Part shown: positions 12,304 through 18,161 of the stretch, one piece after another
Layout of the letters: the number at the start of each line of letters is the position of its first letter
Position numbering within the stretch: position 1 is the stretch's first letter
Made by a program: the position numbers and the translations under genes
The notes under the pieces: generated by a model
Database searches by the model: none
The model's input: only the letters and a program-made list of their open reading frames with translations
What the model was told of the DNA's origin: nothing
Assembly: GCF_945836005.1 (NCBI RefSeq)
Contig: NZ_OX241534.1
Coordinates: 1,536,275-1,600,274 of the forward strand
Origin: Candidatus Nitrosacidococcus sp. I8
Lineage (GTDB): Bacteria > Pseudomonadota > Gammaproteobacteria > Nitrosococcales > Nitrosococcaceae
DNA: 64,000 nucleotides
Reading direction: 5' to 3'

Positions 12304-12768
12304 TTATCGTTGTGAAGGACTATTGAGGGTATTGCATCCTCTAGGGGTATATTTTGCATCTCCCATAAAGGCACAAGTCCAATTATTGTTTTGAGTTTTA
12401 TAGAGGGTGAGAATCTGATTGGTAAGGGCTGAGGCAGCATGGTTACCAAACTGGGCAGTAATAGATCCAGCCGCACTATTAACGTCAATCAAAGGTTTTC
12501 CTGCACCCCCTGACACTTGACCATTGGCATTAATATTAGCCAGCAAATCAGAGTTGCCTACCGGATTTTCGCAAGCATCTCCTAGTTGATTTCTCGCAAG
12601 ACATTCTGCCACTACTATTTTTAATCCACTGATCTGGCTAAAAATACTCATTACTTGAGCCTTAATCATATAATCCTGGTATTGGGGAAGTGCGACTGCG
12701 ATGAGTATCCCCACTATTCCCACGCCTATCATGATTTCAAGCAGGCTAAATCCTAAGCTAGGCTTCAT
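12304..12768 (-). CDS. Type IVa pilin, third full copy of a tandem cluster
   Basis: Prepilin subunit of a type IV pilus. It has 154 residues, with a short leader MKPSLG, cleavage before Phe, and the processed N-terminus FSLLEIMIGVGIVGILIAVA containing the conserved Glu5. A hydrophobic N-terminal alpha-helix carries PQYQDYM. The C-terminal part has two Cys (WTCAFMGDAKYTPRGC) forming the usual D-region disulfide loop; a second Cys pair lies near residues 55-67. It is a clear paralogue of the pilins at 12802-13287 and 13593-14060, with the same WTC...YTPxxC ending. The spacing to the preceding pilin gene is 33 bp, so it is probably in the same transcript. PilD-type peptidase and the PilB/C/T motor are not in the window. 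Confidence 0.9.
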   Translation of the reverse strand: MKPSLGFSLLEIMIGVGIVGILIAVALPQYQDYMIKAQVMSIFSQISGLKIVVAECLARNQLGDACENPVGNSDLLANINANGQVSGGAGKPLIDVNSAAGSITAQFGNHAASALTNQILTLYKTQNNNWTCAFMGDAKYTPRGCNTLNSPSQR

Positions 12769-12801: not shown

Positions 12802-13287
12802 TTATTCCATTGCCGCAGCTGAGCAACTGATGGGGGCATATTGGGCATTTCCACTAAAAGTGCAGGTCCAGCGACCATTGCTATTTCGATCTAAGCTCAC
12901 CGCACTACTGTTTAATACTCCAGTAGCATTTCCCCCTAAGGTGGCACTAATATTAGCAGTGAAGTTAGAATTAATGGTGATGGTAGGAGCGCCTTCTCCA
13001 GCAGGTAAATCAGGAATCCCATTACCATTGCCCACTAGAATATTCGATCCTTGAAAGCTATTTTGGCACGCCGTACCTACCGCTACTGTGGTGTACTGAT
13101 GTTCAATGCACATCTCCACAATAGGGGTGAGGCTTTTGGCTTCGGTGACGGCACGAATTACTTCGCTCTGTGCCACATAGGTTTGATATTGGGGAATGGC
13201 AATCCCAGTGAGAATCCCCACAATCGCAACCCCCATCATAATTTCCATTAAGGAAAAGCCCGAGTTATGCTTTTGGATGGTCATCAT
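12802..13287 (-). CDS. Type IVa pilin, second full copy of a tandem cluster
   Basis: Prepilin of 161 residues. The leader MMTIQKHNSG is followed by processed FSLMEIMMGVAIVGILTGIA, with Glu5 kept, then PQYQTYVAQSEVIRAVTEAK. The C-terminal disulfide region is WTCSFSGNAQYAPISC-like (WTCTFSGNAQYAPISC). ATG codons at 13287 and 13284 are adjacent. No Shine-Dalgarno is visible. The 54-codon truncated pilin upstream stops only 5 nt before the start, so translation may depend on re-initiation from that ORF. It is intermediate in sequence between the other two pilins and looks like the product of local tandem duplication. Confidence 0.9.
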   Translation of the reverse strand: MMTIQKHNSGFSLMEIMMGVAIVGILTGIAIPQYQTYVAQSEVIRAVTEAKSLTPIVEMCIEHQYTTVAVGTACQNSFQGSNILVGNGNGIPDLPAGEGAPTITINSNFTANISATLGGNATGVLNSSAVSLDRNSNGRWTCTFSGNAQYAPISCSAAAME

Positions 13288-13292
13288 TATGG

Positions 13293-13457
13293 TTAATTTA
13301 GGTAATTATCATCGATAGGGATGGTTTGGAGATTTTTTATCCTATCTAGATAAGGCTGAAATTGAGGTACCGCAATGCCTGTGAGCACACCTACAATAGC
13401 AACTACCGTCATTAACTCAATTAAGGAAAAGCCTGAGTTAGTCTTTCTAATAGTCAT
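13293..13457 (-). pseudogene. Truncated 54-residue type IV pilin ORF
   Basis: The short frame from ATG 13457 to TAA 13293 encodes a perfect prepilin N-terminus. Leader MTIRKTNSG is followed by FSLIELMTVVAIVGVLTGIA with Glu5, and then PQFQPYLDRI. After about 44 residues the pilin homology ends, and ten unrelated residues lead to a stop. Globular domain and Cys residues are missing. The leader is nearly the same as that of the next pilin (M-T-I-x-K-x-N-S-G), so this is most simply a decayed tandem duplicate. It stops 5 nt before the next pilin start, so it could still act as a coupling leader or encode a small inner-membrane pilin-like peptide. Confidence 0.75.
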
Positions 13458-13512
13458 AATAAAGTAAAATAGATGGTTAAATATTTGTCATTCTATTAAG
13501 AGTTTAGAGATT

Positions 13513-13542
13513 CTCACCCTCACCTATACCAGTAAGGGTGAG
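13513..13542 (-). terminator. Hairpin between first pilin gene and downstream pilin copies
   Basis: CTCACCCT (13513-13520) and AGGGTGAG (13535-13542) form an 8-bp perfect stem with a 14-nt loop. It lies about 50 bp after the stop of the pilin at 13593-14060. There is no clean U-run on the minus strand after the stem (AATCTCTAAACTC). It may therefore be a partial terminator or a processing/stability hairpin that lets the first pilin be expressed above the others. A full intrinsic terminator is not supported. Confidence 0.4.
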
Positions 13543-13592
13543 TTGTGGTGTTTAAAAGTGAGTACTATAAGATTATAACCAGCGGCAGTTTA

Positions 13593-14060
13593 TTAACTAC
13601 TACCAGAACAGCTAGTGGGCGTATATTGGGCGGTAATTGTAGTACCATCAGGGGCACAAGTCCAGATTCCACTGATAGTTCTAGTCAGCTTGATAGAGCC
13701 TCCCGTAATAGCCGCTGATGCATGACTACCCAGTGTTGCGGTAATGGTTGCAGCTCCTCCCGTCTCGAGAGCTACTTGAGGAACACCTGTACTGCTAGGA
13801 AGGGTTATATTCGCATTTTGAGATGTTCCCGTTAGGATACCTGATCCTGTAGCGGTAGAATTTGCAATACACTCAGCATTTCCAATTCCATTGTTTACGC
13901 AATCCTCTACTAGCATCTTTAATGCACTGGCTTCGGAAATCGCACGGGTGACTTGTGCTTTGGCAATATAAATTTGATATTGAGGAATCGCTACTGCGGA
14001 GAGTATTCCTACGATAGCAACGGTGATCATTAGTTCAATTAAAGAAAAACCTTGATTCAT
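13593..14060 (-). CDS. Type IVa major pilin candidate, promoter-proximal copy
   Basis: Prepilin of 155 residues with a very short leader MNQG followed by FSLIELMITVAIVGILSAVA, keeping Glu5. PQYQIYIAKAQVTRAISEAS continues the helix. Two Cys pairs are visible: EDC...AEC near residues 53-64 and WTC...TSC near the C-terminus. A good Shine-Dalgarno (GGGAGAAA) lies about 7 nt before ATG 14060. It is the first gene after the sigma-54-type promoter at 14251-14266, with a leader of roughly 180 nt, so it is the best candidate for the major PilA-type subunit. The downstream copies could be alternative or minor subunits. Confidence 0.92.
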   Translation of the reverse strand: MNQGFSLIELMITVAIVGILSAVAIPQYQIYIAKAQVTRAISEASALKMLVEDCVNNGIGNAECIANSTATGSGILTGTSQNANITLPSSTGVPQVALETGGAATITATLGSHASAAITGGSIKLTRTISGIWTCAPDGTTITAQYTPTSCSGSS

Positions 14061-14250: not shown

Positions 14251-14266
14251 AGCAATTTATATGCCA
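14251..14266 (-). promoter_or_regulatory. Sigma-54 (-24/-12) promoter for the pilin operon
   Basis: On the minus strand the sequence reads TGGCATATAAATTGCT. This matches the sigma-54 consensus TGGCAYRNNNNTTGCW at every defined position, with the required spacing between GG and GC. The transcript would start near 14240, about 180 nt before the pilin ATG at 14060. Type IVa pilin genes in Pseudomonas and relatives are classic sigma-54/PilR targets, and pilR and pilS are encoded just upstream here. The site is read directly; transcription from it is inferred. Confidence 0.85.
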
Positions 14267-14365: not shown

Positions 14366-14380
14366 TGACATTTTATGTCA
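14366..14380. promoter_or_regulatory. Palindrome TGACAT-TTT-ATGTCA, putative activator site 1
   Basis: A perfect 6-3-6 palindrome centred at 14373, about 130 bp upstream of the predicted sigma-54 start point. That is a normal distance for an enhancer-binding protein. The half-site TGTCA resembles the TGTC core reported for PilR upstream of Pseudomonas pilA. An extra lone TGACA lies at 14326-14330. Assignment to PilR is inference. Confidence 0.6.
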
Positions 14381-14533
14381 CTTATATGACCTAAATCATC
14401 ATAATTTTAATAAATTACCCCATCTTTAGAAAAAATTGGAATAAATCAGGTGGTTATTATTGAGATAATTCTCCATTAATTAGGGATAAACATAGTTAAT
14501 TTAAACTAAAAAATTAAGAGTATTTAATTAAAT

Positions 14534-14548
14534 TGACAAAAATTGTCA
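14534..14548. promoter_or_regulatory. Palindrome TGACAA-AAA-TTGTCA, putative activator site 2
   Basis: The same half-sites and 3-bp spacer as at 14366 and 14608, centred at 14541. It is 74 bp from the centre of site 3 (about seven helical turns) and 168 bp from site 1. Repetition of the same geometry in one intergenic region makes a chance palindrome unlikely and suggests a dimeric regulator, most economically PilR. Confidence 0.6.
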
Positions 14549-14596
14549 TTTTTAACAAAAATCTAATGCAATGATAGAAGGGTGCTGAAATATTTA

Positions 14597-14633
14597 TAGA
14601 GGTATAGTGACAATTTTTGTCACTATACCTCTA
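14597..14633. repeat. Perfect 17-bp inverted repeat with 3-bp loop after pilR
   Basis: The left arm TAGAGGTATAGTGACAA (14597-14613) and right arm TTGTCACTATACCTCTA (14617-14633) are exact reverse complements separated by TTT. As RNA it is a very stable hairpin 32 nt downstream of the pilR stop and probably ends or protects the pilSR transcript. Neither strand has a U-run after the stem, so it does not look like a standard intrinsic terminator. It also contains regulator-like site 3. Confidence 0.75.
14608..14622. promoter_or_regulatory. Palindrome TGACAA-TTT-TTGTCA, putative activator site 3
   Basis: Third copy of the TGACAW-N3-WTGTCA element, embedded at the centre of the longer inverted repeat 14597-14633. 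It lies 44 bp after the pilR stop codon. It could bind the same regulator as sites 1 and 2 and feed back on the pilS-pilR transcript end. Confidence 0.55.
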
Positions 14634-14665: not shown

Positions 14666-16000
14666 TTATTCTAGATTAAGTTTTTTGAGTCGATAGCGAA
14701 GGGCACGAAATGTAATTCCTAATAGCCTTGCCGCTGCCGTTTTGTTATAACCCGTTTGCTCTAATGCTCGTAAAATCGCTTGTTTTTCTAGATCTTCAAG
14801 GTGACGTTCTAGGGAAGCCTCCCCTAGAGAATGGAGTTTATCTGGCCAGTTGGTATCTTTAGGCAGGTGTAAATTTCTAGAATCGATAATTCCTCCTTCA
14901 TGGAGTACTAAAGCACGTTCTAGGATATTTTCCAGCTCTCGTACGTTACCGGGAAAGGGATAGCTTTGAAGTTTCTCAAGTGCACTGGGGGTAATTTGAG
15001 GGCACGCATGATTACCTCGCAAAGCAAGTTGGGTAAGAATATGCTTGGCTAAAATGGGAATATCCTTGGCCCGCTCTCTTAAAGGAGGCACTTGAAGCTC
15101 GACAATATTGAGCCGATAGAATAAATCTTGGCGAAATTTCCCTTCACCCACTAGTTGGGAGAGATCTTGATGGGTAGCACATAAAATCCGTACATCTACC
15201 GGCACCTCTCTTTGGCTACCAATGGGACGAACTGCCCGCTCTTGAATGGCACGAAGAAGTTTGACTTGCATTTGTAAGGGTAAATCTGCCACTTCATCTA
15301 AAAATAAAGTGCCTTCTTGAGCGGCTTGAAAAAGCCCTTCTTTATCTCGAGAGGCTCCGGTGAAACTTCCTTTTTCATGACCAAAGAATTCGCTTTCCAT
15401 TAGACTCTCTGGAATAGCACCACAATTGACGGGCACAAAAGGACCCGATGCTCTAGGTCCTTGGCGGTGAATCAAGCGAGCTACTAATTCTTTGCCGGTA
15501 CCCGATTCTCCACTGATATAGACAGGGGCTTGGCTACAGGCAAGCTTAGTAATTTTACTCCGTACTGCCTCCATGGTGGAGGATTCCCCAAGGAGCTGGT
15601 AACCGCCCTTCGCTTTTTGTAAGGGGGCAGAGGGCATTTTTAATGCCATTTTCACTAGACTGCGTAGAGATTTTACATCCAAAGGTTTAGAGATAAAATC
15701 AAAGGCACCTGATTTTAAAGCCTCTACCGCAGTCTCTACACTACCATAGGCAGTAATTACCGCTACAGGTATTTGGGGGTAGTCTTGATTAATGAGCTTA
15801 ACTAAATCTAATCCGCTACCATCGGGTAGACGCATATCGGTTAAGCATAGGTTAAAGGGGTTTGCCCTAAGTTGGTCACTGGCTTCAGTGAAATTTACTG
15901 CTTTCTGGCAATTAATCTTCATCCCCATTAAGGTTAAATCGAGAAGCTCCAAAATATCAGGTTCATCGTCAACAACGAGTACGACTGGTGATTTGTTCAT
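14666..16000 (-). CDS. pilR: Sigma-54-dependent response regulator PilR
   Basis: NtrC-class activator of pilin transcription. It has 444 residues. The receiver domain (1-120) has the acidic pair VVDDEPD, phospho-acceptor Asp55 in LTDMRLPDGSG, and Lys in SKPLD. The AAA+ domain (~135-360) has Walker A GESGTGKE (164-171), the sigma-54 contact loop GSFTGA (211-216, Ser where most have Ala), and Walker B TLFLDEV. A C-terminal Fis-type helix-turn-helix reads TGYNKTAAARLLGITFRALR. The start at 16000 is 1 bp after the pilS stop, so the pair is co-translated. The pilin promoter it should activate lies about 400 bp downstream. Confidence 0.95.
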   Translation of the reverse strand: MNKSPVVLVVDDEPDILELLDLTLMGMKINCQKAVNFTEASDQLRANPFNLCLTDMRLPDGSGLDLVKLINQDYPQIPVAVITAYGSVETAVEALKSGAFDFISKPLDVKSLRSLVKMALKMPSAPLQKAKGGYQLLGESSTMEAVRSKITKLACSQAPVYISGESGTGKELVARLIHRQGPRASGPFVPVNCGAIPESLMESEFFGHEKGSFTGASRDKEGLFQAAQEGTLFLDEVADLPLQMQVKLLRAIQERAVRPIGSQREVPVDVRILCATHQDLSQLVGEGKFRQDLFYRLNIVELQVPPLRERAKDIPILAKHILTQLALRGNHACPQITPSALEKLQSYPFPGNVRELENILERALVLHEGGIIDSRNLHLPKDTNWPDKLHSLGEASLERHLEDLEKQAILRALEQTGYNKTAAARLLGITFRALRYRLKKLNLE

Positions 16001-16001
16001 T

Positions 16002-18161
16002 TTATTTATTCTCTAATTTAGGTGCGGGAAAACAGATATGAAAGCAGGTACCACTTTCAGGAGGGTTTGGGCAATGCTCTAATATTGCACCATTGTTTTC
16101 TGCCAGCGCTCGAGCAAGATATAACCCCAATCCAGTACCATTAGTAGAGGTAAAGGGCTCAAAAAGATGATCCTTAATCTTTTTAGGAATACCGGGACCT
16201 GAATCAATAATTTCTACCATAACAGGATAAGGTCCTGTTTTCATGCACACAACAATTTTAAAATAAGGTGGTTGATCTATTTTTTTTCCATAATGCCACG
16301 CATTATCGCAAAGATTCCAAATGATTTGATGAAATTGAGAAGGATTAGCTTTGATAGCAATGGTATCGGATTCGATTTCTAGGCAGACGTGAGTCTCATC
16401 AGTTTGTTTGCTAATATAAAATTCCTCTAAAAAACGAGTAAACCAAGGTTTTAGGGTAATTTTTTCTACAATCCCTGGATCCTTACGGCTGAGTTGTAGT
16501 ACATTTTTAACAATTTCATTGATTCGGTTACTGTTAGTCAGAATGATATCTAATAGTCTTTGATTGCCTTTATCTAACTCAAGGGTTTCTTCAAGCAATT
16601 GACCTGCATGGCTAATGGCACCTAAGGGATTTCGAATTTCATGGGCAATACTTGCGGTGAGTCGCCCTAGAGACGCTAGCTTTAATTGTTGGGCTTGTTG
16701 GCGTAAGTAGGAATAATTTTCTAGAAAAATAAGGGTACTTTCCGTGCCCATTAAACGGGTAAATTTAGGCTGTAACTCAGGTAATTCTGGGGTAATATAC
16801 AGTATGTCTCGGCAAGCGCTAGCAGGGTTATTTTGCCAATTTTCCACGGCTTGAGCCAGTACAGGTATGGTCCGGATATTTAATGTATTCTGGTTGTTTT
16901 GGCTAAGCCCTAAAAAATCTCTGCCTTTTTGATTGATTATCTGGATTTTACCATTGTCTCCAACCACAAGCGCCCCATCTTGTAGGTGCTGAAAAATATA
17001 GTCTTTGAGTTGATTTAATTGCTCTAAATCCTGTCCTCTACGAGCAGCTAAAAGCTCACTGGAGCGTACTCGTGCGGTGAGTACTTGCGCCAGTAGTGCC
17101 GTGGTAAATAGAGAAATACCTAACAACCCTACTTGGGTATAGCTACCTACCTCAAGATCATCTTCAAAAAAATAGACATAGGAGTGTTCTAACAATAGAG
17201 CTAGCACAGCCAATGCTGCAAGCCCACTTGCAGTGGTACTTAAAGTCATGATACCCCCTGCGGCTACCGCTACAATGAGCAGCATACCTAAGCCACTGTT
17301 AATTCCCCCGCTGGTATGCATCAAAAGCACAATTATATTAATATCTATACTTAACTGTAGCCAAGTTTGGGTATTGAATTTTCCTATTTTAGTTAGGGTA
17401 GTCCCAATAAAAACGACACTTAAGAGGCAATAGGTAGCACTTATGATTGAGAAAAGATAGGGGTCATGATCCCCTAGAAGATTAGGGTGGGCTCCTGTAA
17501 ATGCGATTCCTACCAGAAGGGTAGCGAGCATGAGTCGATAAATGCCAAATACCGTCAGTGGTCCCCAAGCTTGATGGTTCTCGCTTTTACTCGATATATA
17601 TTTTGGGGAGGCTAGCTCTTGGCTCATTCGAATATGTTGGGCAAGTACTTGAGAAAGTAAAGCAGTAGAAAATAGGGCAATACCCAGTAAACCTGCTTGA
17701 GTATAGGTACCTTGAAATGACTGTTCAGATAAAAAACCATAGGAATGTTCAAATAGTAATGCTAATACAGCAAAAGCTGCTAATCCGCTAGAATGACGAC
17801 CTAGGGTTAAAATACCTCCAGCAGCTACAATAACCACCAAAAGTACTCCTAACCCACTGCCAATTCCCCCACTAGCATAAGTAAATAGAGAAACAACAAC
17901 AATGTCTGTACCTAGCTGTAACCAAACTTGATTATTAAAATCACCAAATTTAAATAGGGTTGCTAAAATAAAAATGATTGCACTACATTCATAGGCAATA
18001 CTGGCTCGCAAAAATAATATGGGATAATTTTGTCCTAAAGATCCAATGCCTATTAGTGCTACCCCTAACATAAGAGAGGCAACAATAAGGCGGTAAATGC
18101 TGAATACAGAGAGTAGATCCCAAGGATTTTTGCCAAAGATTTCGCTTTGTATCTCTTTCAT
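16002..18161 (-). CDS. pilS: Sensor histidine kinase PilS with duplicated six-helix membrane module
   Basis: Membrane histidine kinase for PilR. It has 719 residues, compared with about 530 for PilS of Pseudomonas. The excess is explained by a tandem duplication of the six-helix sensor module, residues ~14-184 and ~199-372. Matching landmarks are VFSIYRL/VFGIYRL, VWLQLGTDI/TWLQLSIDI, SGGIGSGLG/SGGINSGLG, VAAGGILTL/VAAGGIMTL, LALLFEHSY/LALLLEHSY and YTQAGLLGIALFSTALL/YTQVGLLGISLFTTALL. A PAS-like region (~383-480), the H-box SIAHEIRNPLGAISHAGQLL with His507, the N-box NLCDNAWHYG and the G-boxes DSGPGIP and GTGLGLYLA follow, so the kinase looks active. In Pseudomonas the PilS membrane segment senses PilA itself; a doubled module could read more than one of the nearby pilins, which is inference. 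Confidence 0.95.
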   Translation of the reverse strand: MKEIQSEIFGKNPWDLLSVFSIYRLIVASLMLGVALIGIGSLGQNYPILFLRASIAYECSAIIFILATLFKFGDFNNQVWLQLGTDIVVVSLFTYASGGIGSGLGVLLVVIVAAGGILTLGRHSSGLAAFAVLALLFEHSYGFLSEQSFQGTYTQAGLLGIALFSTALLSQVLAQHIRMSQELASPKYISSKSENHQAWGPLTVFGIYRLMLATLLVGIAFTGAHPNLLGDHDPYLFSIISATYCLLSVVFIGTTLTKIGKFNTQTWLQLSIDINIIVLLMHTSGGINSGLGMLLIVAVAAGGIMTLSTTASGLAALAVLALLLEHSYVYFFEDDLEVGSYTQVGLLGISLFTTALLAQVLTARVRSSELLAARRGQDLEQLNQLKDYIFQHLQDGALVVGDNGKIQIINQKGRDFLGLSQNNQNTLNIRTIPVLAQAVENWQNNPASACRDILYITPELPELQPKFTRLMGTESTLIFLENYSYLRQQAQQLKLASLGRLTASIAHEIRNPLGAISHAGQLLEETLELDKGNQRLLDIILTNSNRINEIVKNVLQLSRKDPGIVEKITLKPWFTRFLEEFYISKQTDETHVCLEIESDTIAIKANPSQFHQIIWNLCDNAWHYGKKIDQPPYFKIVVCMKTGPYPVMVEIIDSGPGIPKKIKDHLFEPFTSTNGTGLGLYLARALAENNGAILEHCPNPPESGTCFHICFPAPKLENK

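Follow-up and report, generated by a model that had tools for sequence, protein, structure and literature searches.

The pilS locus and its doubled sensor

The stretch of Candidatus Nitrosacidococcus sp. I8 DNA that was analysed (64,000 nucleotides, hereafter the window) carries on its minus strand a gene for an unusually built PilS sensor kinase, with pilR starting 1 bp after it. The features of these two genes, with the evidence for each, are the following:

16002..18161, minus strand: pilS, encoding a 719-aa sensor histidine kinase with tandem 6TM sensor modules (open reading frame; PF25323 twice, HisKA, HATPase_c; synteny with the single-module pilS of relatives)
17610..18125, minus strand: module 1, residues 13-184, a six-helix PilS sensor bundle without the cytoplasmic signalling helix (PF25323, 99.1 bits; AlphaFold2)
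17568..17609, minus strand: linker, residues 185-198, in place of the PilS N-terminal leader (alignment with single-module PilS leaders)
17046..17567, minus strand: module 2, residues 199-372, the canonical PilS sensor bundle adjoining the kinase (PF25323, 106.8 bits; the order's single-module homologues all align here)
16983..17069, minus strand: signalling helix, residues 365-393, extending TM6 of module 2 and present in one copy only (AlphaFold2 model)
16722..17024, minus strand: weak PAS-like stretch, about residues 380-480 (sub-threshold PAS and sensor matches in Pfam)
16473..16670, minus strand: HisKA dimerisation/phosphoacceptor domain, with phospho-histidine H507 in AHEIRNP
16020..16346, minus strand: HATPase_c domain, with the N box NLCDNAW, DSGPGI, FEPF and GTGLGL all present
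14666..16000, minus strand: pilR, a sigma-54-dependent response regulator (Response_reg, Sigma54_activat, HTH_8; GSFTGA motif)

The pilS frame runs from 18161 down to 16002, and the plus strand of the same interval contains stops throughout (ORF check). The kinase is intact, HisKA and HATPase_c together providing the H, N, G1, F and G2 boxes, and the Pfam domains of PilR (receiver, sigma-54 interaction and Fis-type DNA binding) are intact as well. Both matches to PF25323 (6TM_PilS) exceed the 27-bit cut-off and lie adjacent to each other within one protein, where the usual, though not strictly defining, PilS architecture has one six-helix module. Residues 14-187 and 199-375 aligned from end to end with 93 of 177 positions identical (53%; BLASTP E 5e-50), and their Smith-Waterman score was 431, whereas 500 shuffled sequences averaged 40 and never exceeded 76. 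The duplicated unit consists of the leader plus six helices, to about residue 187, and the linker before W199 occupies the place usually taken by the leader. A preliminary description of this DNA had called the gene PilS and its sensor module tandemly duplicated; the PF25323 matches, kinase domains and locus order agree with the first claim, and the landmarks VFxIYRL, WLQL, SGGIxSGLG, VAAGGIxTL, LALLxEHSY and YTQxGLLGIxLF, found in both copies, bear out the second. Judged from its sequence, the gene is an orthologous PilS at a conserved locus with the sensor doubled. Because the kinase, the locus and module 2 are all orthologous, we regard the two-module protein as a variation inside the PilS family rather than as something excluded from it.

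Origin and distribution of the tandem

Members of the family share the locus order sucC-sucD-bamD-suhB-typA-pilS-pilR, and their pilS has one module; a single-module orthologue occupied the same locus in five of five family members. The f2 genomes inspected also had one there and retained the suhB-typA-pilS-pilR core and bamD. No second two-module PilS was found in the order: in a sample of 63 genomes, all 55 with a PilS match besides strain I8 aligned to module 2 and the kinase only (one of these matches being a small fragment and one being broken by a stop). A further 238 genomes with matches came from the class sample and 48 from the phylum sample, with some overlap, and each of the matches listed covered approximately one module. 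Nine genomes of the class sample that gave two matches to the tandem query, together with four others, showed among the matches listed no frame in which two modules adjoin, and 80 public contigs with PilS modules had one module each and no tandem. Long PilS open frames elsewhere (up to 820 aa) were considered as possible tandems, and all 14 inspected proved to be single-module, the frame extending upstream of the likely start. A literature search likewise found no report of a duplicated sensor in PilS. Since all surveyed relatives are single-module, the tandem form is rare and so far unique to one genome among those examined, the genus being represented by that genome. In one relative (G005; L136, 6979-9939) pilS and pilR are both split by frame breaks, which suggests loss of PilSR there.

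A maximum-likelihood tree of 35 modules placed modules 1 and 2 as sisters (bootstrap 98, SH-aLRT 92) and both within the family of strain I8 (98/89), and the same sisterhood was recovered in a quick tree of 125 modules (SH-aLRT 95). Therefore, the duplication occurred in this lineage, after its split from the sister genera. The module trees thus show, at the level of sequence, an internal tandem duplication of the PilS sensor after the genus separated from the known family members, both copies having been kept. Fusion with a separate PilS-like gene was considered as the origin and was not supported, because a profile search of the genome, a closed single sequence of 1,848,551 bp, detected one PF25323 gene in all of it and no second. 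The branch leading to module 1 is 1.08 long and that to module 2 is 0.52, so module 1 has evolved about twice as fast.

Constraint on the modules and their predicted structure

Codon positions 1, 2 and 3 are 57%, 78% and 44% identical between the modules. With roughly every second residue different and only 44% of third positions matching, the copies cannot be a collapsed or doubled repeat of the assembly; the codon pattern is that of old copies under protein-level constraint. When bundle positions were binned by their conservation in other PilS proteins, each module carried the family consensus at 24 of the 24 positions conserved at 90% or more, as opposed to only about 30% of the variable positions, a difference indicating site-specific purifying selection. 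Near-invariant residues kept in module 1 include D86, R24, Y23, Y57 and the SGG/SGLG loop. The view that both copies are old and apparently maintained, also put forward in the preliminary description, is well supported by the retention of all 24 positions in each. That description had further held that lack of a tandem in any relative, combined with disabling changes in copy 2, would point to artefact or decay: none of the relatives examined has a tandem, but neither copy is disabled. The tandem PilS is a real, maintained and apparently unique domain architecture within the known family.

The modules have also diverged in particular places. In module 1 the end of helix 3 is altered from ITLLMH to VSLFTY, and several residues conserved at 80-86% are lost nearby; in module 2 the GR of the helix 4-5 loop has become ST. 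Because a conserved helix end has changed and its branch is twice as long as that of module 2, module 1 may no longer bind pilin.

An AlphaFold2 model of the tandem, predicted as a monomer from a 52-sequence alignment, has 12 transmembrane helices with a mean pLDDT of 76 and a pTM of 0.60, module 2 lying mostly above 90 and module 1 at about 50-75. The last helix of module 2 runs on as one long output helix (340-393); that of module 1 spans 152-183. Modelled alone, module 1 formed a six-helix bundle (pLDDT 85.7, pTM 0.77) with helices at 13-37, 47-69, 75-96, 105-118, 124-144 and 153-184. When the tandem model was compared with PDB chains by VIA-align, human AC9, AC8 and AC5 gave Z scores of 18-21 over 348-374 of 400 residues, bacterial Cya gave 10.3, and unrelated chains gave at most 8.6. 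For module 1 alone the best matches were AC9 (Z 13.2), Pseudomonas ImcA (13.0) and Cya (9.9), the next chain reaching 6.8. Foldseek returned no match with E < 0.001 for either model, the cyclase match thus resting on VIA-align re-alignment; for this reason, and as a Z of about 13 possibly reflects a common helical-bundle arrangement, the single-module match taken alone is suggestive. The match of the whole tandem (Z of about 20) is stronger, with the caveats that a monomer prediction could satisfy module 2-module 2 homodimer contacts in cis via module 1 and that adenylyl cyclase structures may belong to the AlphaFold2 training set. The modules are thus predicted, from the model only, to form a pseudo-dimer like the 12-helix membrane domain of adenylyl cyclases.

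The likeness to mammalian AC9, AC8 and AC5 and to mycobacterial Cya/Rv1625c lies in the predicted hexahelical bundle fold. Membrane adenylyl cyclases are pseudo-heterodimers that arose by duplication and fusion from bacterial ancestors with one bundle (PMC9552081), and the dimer face of Cya is formed by helices 4-6 (PMC9433096). The mammalian enzymes and the tandem PilS share two bundles per chain arranged as a pseudo-dimer (predicted in PilS, where the model alone places two bundles of the cyclase-anchor fold in one chain) and descent from a single-bundle ancestor that became duplicated (PMC9552081, PMC9433096). In contrast to the cyclases, the tandem PilS has no class III cyclase domain after either bundle, Pfam giving only HisKA and HATPase_c; its two bundles lie next to each other, and just one of them connects to an output domain. 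Identity between PilS and the adenylyl cyclases is about 9%, and the comparison shows no sequence homology. A cyclase anchor can be functionally replaced by a 6TM histidine-kinase receptor (PMC4821796), and the quorum-sensing kinases CqsS and LqsS also place a six-helix membrane receptor on a histidine kinase, a design called the same as that of cyclase anchors (PMC4821796); these kinases, set beside PilS here by description only, differ from the tandem in having a single bundle and a small-molecule ligand. Closest is the PilS of Pseudomonas and other gammaproteobacteria, which has the same sensor module family, signalling helix, PAS-like stretch and kinase, and the same adjacent pilR and pilin in a conserved locus order, but which has one 6TM_PilS module in about 530 aa instead of two modules and 12 transmembrane helices in 719. 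Literature searches found neither a relation between PilS and adenylyl cyclases nor a solved PilS membrane structure.

The pilin genes and a proposed role of module 1

Downstream of pilR lie the following features:

14366-14380, 14534-14548 and 14608-14622, strand-neutral: three perfect TGACA-N5-TGTCA palindromes, candidate PilR enhancer sites
14251..14266, minus strand: sigma-54-like promoter TGGCATATAAATTGCT, 206 bp before pilin 1 (score reached by none of 500 shuffles)
13593..14060, minus strand: pilin 1, likely the major pilin and the PilSR target (PF00114; 54% identical to the first pilin of the sister genus G001)
12802..13287, minus strand: pilin 2 (PF00114)
12304..12768, minus strand: pilin 3 (PF00114)

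A sigma-54 activator adjoins pilS, sigma-54 (rpoN) is encoded in the genome, and a sigma-54 site precedes a pilin gene, the setting of a cognate PilR; G001 has a similar sigma-54-like site. The palindrome occurs three times in the window, where 0.03 would be expected, and five times genome-wide, and by position these copies are candidate PilR sites. The two other genomic copies, near an amino-acid kinase/PabB-like pair and near predicted secreted proteins, are at the level of a reversed-pattern control and were set aside. The palindromes at 14366-14622, with a half-site, are absent from the matching region of G001, even though its sigma-54-like site is retained there. Upstream of pilins 2 and 3 there is neither a sigma-54 site nor a palindrome. 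The count of PF00114 pilins increases along the family, from a single one per g3 genome to two in G001 and three here, and in some g3 genomes the pilin lies away from pilSR.

In P. aeruginosa, as summarised in a review (PMC6058289), PilS and PilA interact directly within the membrane, and PilR becomes active when pilin is lost. We propose, giving the explanation as a whole an even chance, that in the duplicated PilS module 2 is the pilin-inventory sensor and module 1 a constrained partner without output that shifts the level at which the switch operates; the tandem is known from one genome, and the proposal draws on its sequence and on predicted models. Because the number of duplicated helices is even, topology is unchanged and the kinase is still cytoplasmic. 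Module 2, the only one of the two that runs on into the signalling helix, PAS-like stretch and kinase, would act as the canonical sensor, free pilin in the inner membrane lowering kinase output to PilR. Module 1 is predicted to pack on a module 2 by the face that helices 4-6 form, like the hexahelical halves of cyclases, and, either by binding pilin or as a stand-in for the partner bundle, would shift the pilin level for the kinase/phosphatase switch of PilS. A changed sensing threshold from two bundles is thus possible, and module 1 more likely tunes module 2 than reads a second pilin. More tentatively, and with considerable doubt, we suggest that a histidine kinase has independently evolved a covalent 12-helix pseudo-heterodimer receptor like that of animal cyclases, with one kinase-coupled bundle and a second, uncoupled one that acts as a partner setting the pilin set-point. 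If so, a single hexahelical intramembrane receptor fold would be common to PilS modules and cyclase anchors.

Rather unlikely, although the first alternative to be weighed, is that module 1 has a structural or targeting role or is a locked-in neutral addition, its fold being kept for membrane stability with no reading of pilin. The missing signalling helix, the roughly twofold faster evolution and the losses near the end of helix 3 would all fit such a role, and the membrane region of Pseudomonas PilS is also required for polar targeting (Ethier and Boyd 2000, as cited in PMC6058289); on the other hand, all 24 near-invariant bundle positions are kept, and these are not obviously needed for fold stability alone.

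We consider it improbable that each module senses a different pilin, pilin 1 as against pilins 2 and 3, with one kinase integrating two pools. Three pilins adjoin pilS here, as against one or two elsewhere in the family, and the divergence of the modules is complementary, module 2 having lost the GR of the helix 4-5 loop and module 1 the helix 3 end. However, in G001 a single-module PilS occurs with two pilin genes next to the same locus, and the N-terminal membrane helices of the three local pilins are very similar, all with Glu5; these two observations make the reading less likely, and only pilin 1 has the sigma-54 site and palindromes. The link between two modules and several pilins drawn in the preliminary description finds little support in the same evidence. 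In Legionella pneumophila a single pilS-pilR pair coexists with two related pilins (PMC13170364), a comparison of gene number and not of module number.

It is very unlikely that the gene yields two products, the full tandem PilS and a single-module PilS started at M179, twenty codons before W199, for although this ATG sits at the expected start of a PilS leader, no ribosome-binding site could be found upstream of it, or upstream of the main start, and M179 falls inside the conserved post-TM6 helix, where a chance ATG is possible. Least probable of all is an artefact or a decaying duplication, to which the single known genome and the long module 1 branch might point but which is opposed by the single closed contig, the diverged copies, the open frame, the kept invariant positions and third codon positions that are saturated against second positions 78% identical.

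How a nearly loopless six-helix sensor gauges the abundance of a membrane protein is not understood. Two diverged copies, one of them wired to the kinase, separate ligand binding from signal output, and the tandem permits asymmetric mutants, which a homodimer does not. If the likeness to cyclase anchors holds, PilS, whose ligand is pilin, would be a model for a fold whose animal ligands are mostly unknown.

Two small features lie between pilins 1 and 2. A 54-codon mini-pilin frame (13293-13457, minus strand) encodes a leader and N-terminal helix only (MTIRKTNSGFSLIELMTVVAIVGVLTGIAVPQFQ...) before its stop, five bases ahead of pilin 2; it is probably the remnant of a fourth pilin, but its product would amount to a lone membrane helix, the sort of feature that PilS is believed to detect. 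Between pilin 1 and this frame, a hairpin-like repeat seen by eye (13470-13560, minus strand; CTCACCCT ... AGGGTGAG) could separate transcription of pilin 1 from that of pilins 2 and 3.
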